Below are positions 30,722 through 45,002 of a stretch of 64,000 bases of DNA, piece by piece; within the stretch, counting starts at the first letter, position 1, and each line of letters starts with the position of its first letter. The stretch is from Phosphitispora fastidiosa (GTDB taxonomy: Bacteria > Bacillota > Thermincolia > Thermincolales > UBA2595): assembly GCF_019008365.1 (NCBI RefSeq), contig NZ_JAHHUL010000005.1:1-64000 (forward strand). Reading direction: 5' to 3'. Position numbers and translations under genes: made by a program. The notes below the pieces were generated by a model. The model saw only the letters and a program-made list of their open reading frames with translations, was not told where the DNA came from and did no database searches.

Positions 30722-30797
30722 TGGTGAGCCATGCTGGGCTCGAACCAGCGACACCCTGATTAAAAGTCAGGTGCTCTACCAACTGAGCTAATGGCTC
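30722..30797 (-). tRNA. tRNA-Lys (TTT)
   Basis: 76 nt with encoded CCA. Acceptor GAGCCAT/ATGGCTC, anticodon loop CTTTTAA giving TTT, T arm GCTGGTTCGAGCCCAGC. Last tRNA of the six-gene operon. Confidence 0.97.
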
Positions 30798-30801
30798 AAA
30801 A

Positions 30802-30877
30802 TGGCTGGGGCGGCAGGACTCGAACCTACGAATGGCGGAGTCAAAGTCCGCTGCCTTACCAGCTTGGCTACGCCCCA
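30802..30877 (-). tRNA. tRNA-Gln (TTG)
   Basis: 76 nt with encoded CCA. Acceptor TGGGGCG/CGCCCCA, anticodon loop CTTTGAC giving TTG, T loop TTCGAGT. Confidence 0.97.
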
Positions 30878-30905
30878 ATACACATTATGATGAATGTTGG
30901 ATTTA

Positions 30906-30982
30906 TGGGGTGGCTGATGGGATTCGAACCCACGAGTGCAGGAGCCACAATCCTGTGTCTTAACCTCTTGACTACAGCCACC
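30906..30982 (-). tRNA. tRNA-His (GTG)
   Basis: 77 nt including the extra 5' G typical of tRNA-His and an encoded CCA. Acceptor GTGGCTG/CAGCCAC, anticodon loop TTGTGGC giving GTG, discriminator C. Confidence 0.97.
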
Positions 30983-31017
30983 ATGAAAATAAATATTAGC
31001 ATTTATCCAATAACTAA

Positions 31018-31093
31018 TGGCGCGCCTAGGAGGACTCGAACCTCCGGCACACGGATTAGAAGTCCGTTGCTCTATCCACTGAGCTATAGGCGC
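31018..31093 (-). tRNA. tRNA-Arg (TCT)
   Basis: 76 nt with encoded CCA. Acceptor GCGCCTA/TAGGCGC, anticodon loop CTTCTAA giving TCT, T arm GGAGGTTCGAGTCCTCC. Confidence 0.97.
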
Positions 31094-31102
31094 TCAAATA
31101 AG

Positions 31103-31176
31103 TGGAGCGGGTGATGGGAATCGAACCCACACGACTAGCTTGGAAGGCTAGGGCTCTACCATTGAGCTACACCCGC
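31103..31176 (-). tRNA. tRNA-Gly (TCC)
   Basis: 74 nt with encoded CCA. Acceptor GCGGGTG/CACCCGC, anticodon loop CTTCCAA giving TCC. Complements the GCC isoacceptor at 11880. Confidence 0.97.
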
Positions 31177-31242
31177 ATGTAATATGTCTACCATTAAACA
31201 TATTATCCCTCTCCGGACCCTGCCTATTACTCAGGAAATTAA

Positions 31243-31319
31243 TGGTCGGGATGGAGGGATTTGAACCCCCGACCCCTTGCTCCCAAGGCAAGTGCGCTAC
31301 CAAACTGCGCTACATCCCG
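31243..31319 (-). tRNA. tRNA-Pro (TGG)
   Basis: 77 nt with encoded CCA. Acceptor CGGGATG/CATCCCG, anticodon loop CTTGGGA giving TGG. First tRNA after the promoter. Confidence 0.97.
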
Positions 31320-43759: not shown

Positions 43760-44461
43760 CTAATACAGCCGGACCAGAACCAGAAAATACAGGCCCAGGA
43801 CGATCAGCACCACCCCACTGCCCATGGTAATGTAGCGGGAATACTTGTGAAACCTGGGCAGCCGGCTGATAACACCTGTAAAAGTGCCTGCAATAAGCAG
43901 TGGCATACCATGGCCCAGACCATAGGCAAATAACAGACCTGCTCCATAATAAAAGCTTCCGGTAGAAGCAACATAAGTGATAATTACTGCCAAAACGGGA
44001 GTTGCACACGGTGAAGCCACCAGTCCAAACGTAAGCCCAATCGCAAATGCCGGGAGCAGCCCGCCTTTTTTGAGAGGCATTTTATTCAAAGTGGGAAACC
44101 TGATGTTGATAACTCCCAAAAGGCTTAATCCCATAACTATGGCAATTACTGCAAGTACGTAGTACCATATGTCACCCGCCTGCCCGACAACCCTGCCCAG
44201 AAGTACGGCGGCAACGCCAAAAGCGGAAAACGTCACCGACATCCCCAGAACAAAGGCTGCAGACATGGCAAAGCCTCGAATGCGGGATTTGCCCTCCGCA
44301 CCGCCATAACCCCCGATATATCCGACAATAACAGGTATCATAGTCAGGATACAGGGGCTTATACTGGTAATAATCCCACCAAAAAATACAATTAAAAAAG
44401 ATAGGGGCGAAATAGCGCCCACAGCCTGAGGAACCACCTTGTCAAAAAAGTCCTGAAACAT
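43760..44461 (-). CDS. ccdA: CcdA-type thiol electron transporter
   Basis: 233 residues, six membrane helices. CcdA/DsbD-beta family: carries electrons from cytoplasmic thioredoxin across the membrane. The redox cysteines are in SISPCILTMIP and VASPCATPVL. ATG 44461 with AAAGGG upstream. It directly follows the thioredoxin-like selenoprotein gene (20 nt), its probable electron acceptor outside the membrane. Confidence 0.93.
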   Translation of the reverse strand: MFQDFFDKVVPQAVGAISPLSFLIVFFGGIITSISPCILTMIPVIVGYIGGYGGAEGKSRIRGFAMSAAFVLGMSVTFSAFGVAAVLLGRVVGQAGDIWYYVLAVIAIVMGLSLLGVINIRFPTLNKMPLKKGGLLPAFAIGLTFGLVASPCATPVLAVIITYVASTGSFYYGAGLLFAYGLGHGMPLLIAGTFTGVISRLPRFHKYSRYITMGSGVVLIVLGLYFLVLVRLY

Positions 44462-44481
44462 ATCCAATCCCTTTCCGCATC

Positions 44482-44931
44482 TTATTCCTTGGCAGCAGTT
44501 TGGACAGCCTTATTTAGATGGCCCTCCAGGAAATCCTGGGTCTGGGTACCCGCATCAGAAAAAAGAATATTTCCCTGACCATCCATAATGACAATATGCG
44601 GAATATAATAGACATTGAACTGCCCTGCCAAAGGCGCAGTCCCGGCATCGTTAGTATTGGCAATAATAAACTCTACGTCATTCCCATATTTCTCTTCCAG
44701 GGCCAGCACCACTGGCTCCATGTCCCGGCAGGCCGGTCAGGTTACTCCATAGAATTCCAGAAATATTGGTTTTCCGGCCTCGGCAGCGCCGGCAAACTTC
44801 CCTGCAGGGTCAGGGGTAGTGGCAAACTGGCCTTCACCTTCCTGTGCGGGGTTAAGGTACGGAATTACAAAAATAACTCCTACCGCAAGTACAACCAATA
44901 CCAGAATAATTATCCTGATATTAACCTTCAT
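44482..44931 (-). CDS. Thioredoxin-like selenoprotein (UPAC active site), in-frame TGA
   Basis: 149 residues if TGA at 44737-44739 is read as selenocysteine. ATG 44931 has AAGGA upstream. An N-terminal membrane anchor (IRIIILVLVVLAVGVIFVIPYL) leads to a thioredoxin fold: FLEFYGVT-U-PAC-RDMEPVVLALEEKYG, the cis-Pro region YYIPHIVIMD and a C-terminal helix. The TGA stands exactly where the first Cys of CxxC belongs, and reading frame and similarity continue unbroken on both sides. A SECIS-like hairpin lies at the right distance. Cotranscribed with ccdA. A nonsense mutation is the alternative but less likely. Confidence 0.82.
44702..44739 (-). promoter_or_regulatory. Candidate bacterial SECIS element
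   Basis: After the UGA (44737-44739) come 25 nt and then an apical loop UGGUG closed by a perfect 5-bp stem GCCAG/CUGGC (44702-44716). Bacterial SECIS hairpins lie within the coding sequence just 3' of the UGA, with a G among the first two loop bases, which is what is seen. Confidence 0.65.
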
Positions 44932-45002
44932 CGGCAATCGTCCTTTCATCAATAAAATTAGTTATTCCGCAAATATTAAGTAAATTATATCATTAATTTC
45001 AG

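Follow-up and report, generated by a model that had tools for sequence, protein, structure and literature searches.

An apparent stop codon in a thioredoxin gene almost certainly encodes an active-site selenocysteine, as judged from sequence comparisons, and the gene is not broken. The gene, referred to here as trx, lies at positions 44482 to 44931 on the minus strand of the window (the whole stretch of 64,000 nucleotides that was analyzed) and is read as a membrane-anchored thioredoxin-fold selenoprotein of 149 codons plus stop, with one TGA read through. We put the probability that its UGA specifies selenocysteine, and that the predicted product is an extracytoplasmic selenothioredoxin served by CcdA, at about 0.96. 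The host is a relative of Thermincola, the nearest named record being Thermincola ferriacetica BL5_bin.1 (93% identical), and its assembly is approximately 99.96% complete.

The minus-strand frame from position 44952, with TGA written as U, reads LMKGRLP-MKVNIRIIILVLVVLAVGVIFVIPYLNP...FLEFYGVTUPACRDMEPVVLALEEKYGNDVEF...TAAKE. The TGA at 44739-44737 is the sole in-frame stop ahead of the TAA at 44484-44482, and the probable start is the ATG at 44931, with AAAGGA about 9 nucleotides upstream. Standard ORF calling breaks this frame into 44952-44737 and 44721-44482. The first-pass annotation had joined two ORFs over one TGA in the same frame, and the translation supports this, as does the match of the joined frame (C for U) to Pfam Thioredoxin (PF00085, 4.5e-9, above cut-off), which spans the TGA at residues 52-136. 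The coordinates given earlier were also correct; the strand, which had been left unstated, is minus. PF00085 is the best Pfam match of the product, and PF13098 also matches above its cut-off (1.1e-7). The TGA (44737 to 44739, minus strand) occupies the position of the first Cys in the thioredoxin CxxC motif, i.e., residue 1 of UPAC. This assignment, made earlier and in agreement with our alignments to Cys-containing homologs, relies on the translation, the codon across genomes and the alignments, in which the in-frame UGA is aligned with the homologs' Cys. A 145-amino-acid ORF runs antisense across nearly the entire gene (44518-44955, plus strand); it is probably a chance ORF and could mislead a gene caller.

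In the AlphaFold2 model (mean pLDDT 85), the product is predicted to adopt a thioredoxin fold with a single N-terminal helix at residues 12-33. The best PDB match of the model is 3gnj_A (Z 16.1, rmsd 1.9 over 109 residues), and the modeled domain compares with solved PDB thioredoxins at Z 14-16. As in the thioredoxin superfamily, the modeled active-site residue U/C72 is located immediately ahead of a helix (73-89), and an invariant Ile117-Pro118 puts its Pro at the position where thioredoxins have their conserved cis-Pro. The approximate region of the N-terminal membrane anchor, 44837 to 44931 on the minus strand, encodes MKVNIRIIILVLVVLAVGVIFVIPYL and contains the one modeled helix. Together with the PF00085 match, this model favors the earlier description of the protein as a membrane-anchored thioredoxin. 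Lys and Arg precede the anchor helix and acidic residues follow it; given the positively charged residues ahead of the helix, the thioredoxin domain probably faces outside according to the positive-inside rule.

A frame interrupted by a single stop could also arise when a chance nonsense mutation, or a sequencing error, cuts a Cys thioredoxin. The distribution of the TGA was examined among 398 genomes sampled from the phylum, in a scan that covers close relatives within Bacillota. Strong matches (E ≤ 1e-25) occur in 29 of these genomes, of which 25, from 22 genera, carry exactly one TGA within the match. The identical codon is thus TGA in 22 genera; TAA or TAG is found in none of the 29, and the TGA is retained in both congeners searched. 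In a second collection, Desulfosporosinus and Syntrophomonadaceae records carry the same TGA. The remaining 4 of the 29 genomes have matches free of stops, comprising three CPAC orthologs and one more distant CPAC protein, and the Cys orthologs use TGT for the active-site Cys. On a tree built with the active-site column masked, the Sec and Cys forms require 3 changes, compared with 8.4 under shuffled labels. Beyond the TGA, the host (G000) and G005 differ at 28 synonymous and 13 non-synonymous codons, with 7, 7 and 32 differences at the first, second and third codon positions, respectively; between the host and G006, there are 17 synonymous and 4 non-synonymous codon differences. Since the differences between congeners past the TGA are mostly at third positions, the sequence pattern indicates that the downstream half is translated and under purifying selection. 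A sporadic mutation or sequencing error, the outcome that the first-pass annotation had named as refuting its reading, is contradicted by the recurrent TGA, by purifying selection beyond it and by the fixed synonymous sites of the downstream hairpin described below, and we reject it as having practically no chance of being correct.

The candidate SECIS-like hairpin is located at 44698 to 44720 on the minus strand, corresponding to conserved columns 20-42 when counted from the T of TGA, and is recognized by its fold, its near-invariance in 28 distinct sequences and the fixation of synonymous codons. In the window it has a lower stem UGGAGCC/GGCCCUG, an inner stem GCCAGU/GCUGGC and a loop GGU. 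The stem begins 20 nucleotides past the TGA and the loop 25 nucleotides past; the GCCAG-UGGUG-CUGGC hairpin proposed earlier is therefore real, and the distance of 25 nucleotides assigned to it fits the loop, with the stem starting at 20. A hairpin soon after the UGA with a G in a small apical loop is what is expected of a SECIS element, and the GGU loop is of this kind. The lower stem in the window has an A-C mismatch, and the hairpin there depends on the inner stem. The consensus form of the element in this family is AUGGAGCC-nGUGRUnnn-GGCUCU (AUGGAGCCnGUGRUnnnGGCUCU).

Codon choice within the hairpin departs from that in the rest of these genes. For Glu, all 31 Sec genes have GAG (37% of Glu elsewhere), the Val codon is GTG in 31 of 31 (26% elsewhere), the Ala codon is GCT in 29 of 31 (31% elsewhere) and the Pro codon is CCC in 24 of 31 (23% elsewhere), although these counts come from sequences that share kinship and are not independent events. 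Stem cells are paired in 94.9% of cases in the 28 distinct sequences versus 28-58% when the partners are slid. Only a single sequence (L084) shows a compensatory change, from A-U to G-C, and 52 of 500 shuffles reach the observed covariation value, a test that is weak because the nearly invariant stem offers little covariation information. L084 is a divergent homolog that keeps the hairpin though the Glu of MEPV has become Arg. When the window peptide is recoded synonymously, 0.9% of codings are equally stable; fold stability in the window is by itself modest support, and conservation carries the case. Conservation of the peptide MEPV..AL could lie behind part of the hairpin conservation but leaves the fixed third positions unexplained. 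The Cys orthologs are without the hairpin, and their peptide has changed from MEPVV..AL to MKP...EL. An Rfam search of the window returned tRNAs only and no SECIS match. Six tRNA genes (Lys, Gln, His, Arg, Gly and Pro) are clustered at 30722-31319 on the minus strand of the window.

The host genome contains the genes for selenocysteine insertion whose search had been proposed as a check: selA (5.8e-193), selB (3.8e-109, above cut-off), a tRNA-Sec (75.5 bits) with anticodon tca (UCA), and two selD genes (L018 and L019; G000:C26 and C20). Because each selD has one in-frame TGA, both selenophosphate synthetases are probably selenoproteins themselves. Among the 29 genomes with the trx gene or its paralog, 28 have selA, the exception being a 75% complete MAG. 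Above the cut-off, selA is found in 256 of the 398 genomes of the phylum, and the genomes with the Cys form also carry it; by itself the presence of selA discriminates little. Elsewhere in the 64-kb window, a non-exhaustive scan yielded three weak TGA-interrupted frames, none a convincing second selenoprotein; its overlap filter also hid trx owing to the antisense ORF.

A UGA at the position of an active-site Cys might in principle be decoded as Cys, so that the codon might be translated without selenocysteine (as near-cognate Trp or Cys, or under a reassigned code), or a short product might be made as well. The presence of a canonical selenocysteine system that includes tRNA-Sec(UCA), the conserved SECIS-like hairpin, and the use of TGT without the hairpin in the Cys orthologs all speak against this alternative, which we consider highly improbable. 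The selenoprotein reading put forward earlier is thus supported, with the synonymous sites of the hairpin and the adjacency to ccdA both conserved at the level of sequence.

The neighboring gene, ccdA (43760 to 44467, minus strand; PF02683, 3.6e-32), encodes a DsbD_TM membrane thiol-electron transporter, the probable electron donor, and begins 14 bp past the trx stop, as expected from the adjacency first noted. Genetic linkage to CcdA extends to most homologous loci, where ccdA adjoins trx or is fused to it. Fusion in one frame is found at 12 loci (L037, L039-L046, L065, L070 and L077), and ccdA is undetectable within about 1.5 kb at eight loci (L066, L071-L073, L075, L076, L078 and L081). The fused frame holds the TGA in Desulfosporosinus and some other Bacillota (e.g., L037:3001-4116). 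The host genome also carries a second trx-ccdA pair (L031:508-3152, G000:C18), which has the Cys site CQPC and is flanked by a permease and by a small protein resembling thioredoxin. Two relatives from the same family (L030 and L035) have TGA in place of the first Cys of this paralog (UPSC and UQSC), so the same Sec/Cys exchange appears in a second family.

We infer that the UGA at 44739-44737 is decoded by SelB and Sec-tRNA(UCA), with selenocysteine inserted under the direction of the hairpin, the stem of which begins about 20 nucleotides downstream. The product would be a thioredoxin that a single N-terminal helix holds in the membrane, and the UPAC site would lie on the outer side. CcdA would move electrons from cytoplasmic thiols onto the Sec/Cys pair, which might then reduce disulfides or other oxidized substrates outside the cell. 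ResA and StoA of Bacillus are membrane-anchored extracytoplasmic thioredoxins served by CcdA. The window protein is predicted to be of the same anchored extracytoplasmic type and matches a ResA model (1.2e-7), whereas the active sites of ResA and StoA use Cys, and it scores 31.8 bits against 170 for the curated ResA subfamily (PRK03147).

A more specific possibility is that the selenoprotein serves mainly to reduce apocytochrome c, in the manner of ResA, for the multiheme c-type cytochromes that Thermincola produces (PMC7911101, PMC6703420). The linkage to CcdA is consistent with this role, as are the ResB-family matches found in each of the eight searched members of the order, the host genome having five such matches. 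However, a ResB match is absent from 12 of the 27 genomes searched, all with trx and three of them Cys forms; no cytochrome-maturation gene is among the immediate annotated neighbors of trx; and the host has the second, Cys-type trx-ccdA pair. As the main job of the protein this role is therefore doubtful. Cytochrome c maturation is plausible as a target in Thermincola and unlikely as the general function of the family, because 12 of the 27 genomes have no ResB.

Thioredoxins with Sec in a UxxC motif (Trx, PF00085) are listed in PMC9312934, PMC13188914 and PMC1794560, the last including one from Carboxydothermus hydrogenoformans. The window protein resembles these in its thioredoxin fold, in having Sec first in CxxC and in its occurrence in anaerobic Firmicutes, and differs from them in having a membrane anchor and in being genetically linked or fused to CcdA; it scores 33.8 bits against a cut-off of 96.8 for the thioredoxin TrxA equivalog (TIGR01068). 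A thiol:disulfide interchange selenoprotein (PF13098, UxxC) is also listed in PMC9312934. The window protein likewise matches PF13098, and thiol-disulfide exchange is presumed for both, but its best Pfam match is PF00085 and the likeness is one of family description. The rhodanese/DsbD fusion-like selenoprotein TsoB (NF045694) shares a DsbD-type membrane domain, a thioredoxin domain and Sec, and both window proteins match it partially (110 and 18.5 bits against a cut-off of 805). However, the TsoB motif is UxxxxU (PMC13188914), the architectures differ and the window proteins are without a rhodanese domain. Among NCBIfam models, no dedicated one is passed by the window protein or the CcdA-coupled subfamily, and searches of the openly available literature turned up no named CcdA-linked selenothioredoxin. 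Whether these proteins form a distinct, unnamed subfamily of anaerobic Bacillota, in which an ancestral Sec is fed straight by CcdA and the gene was fused to ccdA in several lineages, is to us an evenly balanced question.

Selenocysteine in thioredoxin-like proteins is not new, and trx is a well-supported further case of a known kind of selenoprotein. Gene callers of the standard type would split it in two, with loss of its active site. The family also illustrates how a SECIS element can fix codons and apparently residues (MEPV..AL), which are altered once Sec has given way to Cys. The trx-ccdA family thus provides a clear test case for selenocysteine in an extracytoplasmic reducing pathway.
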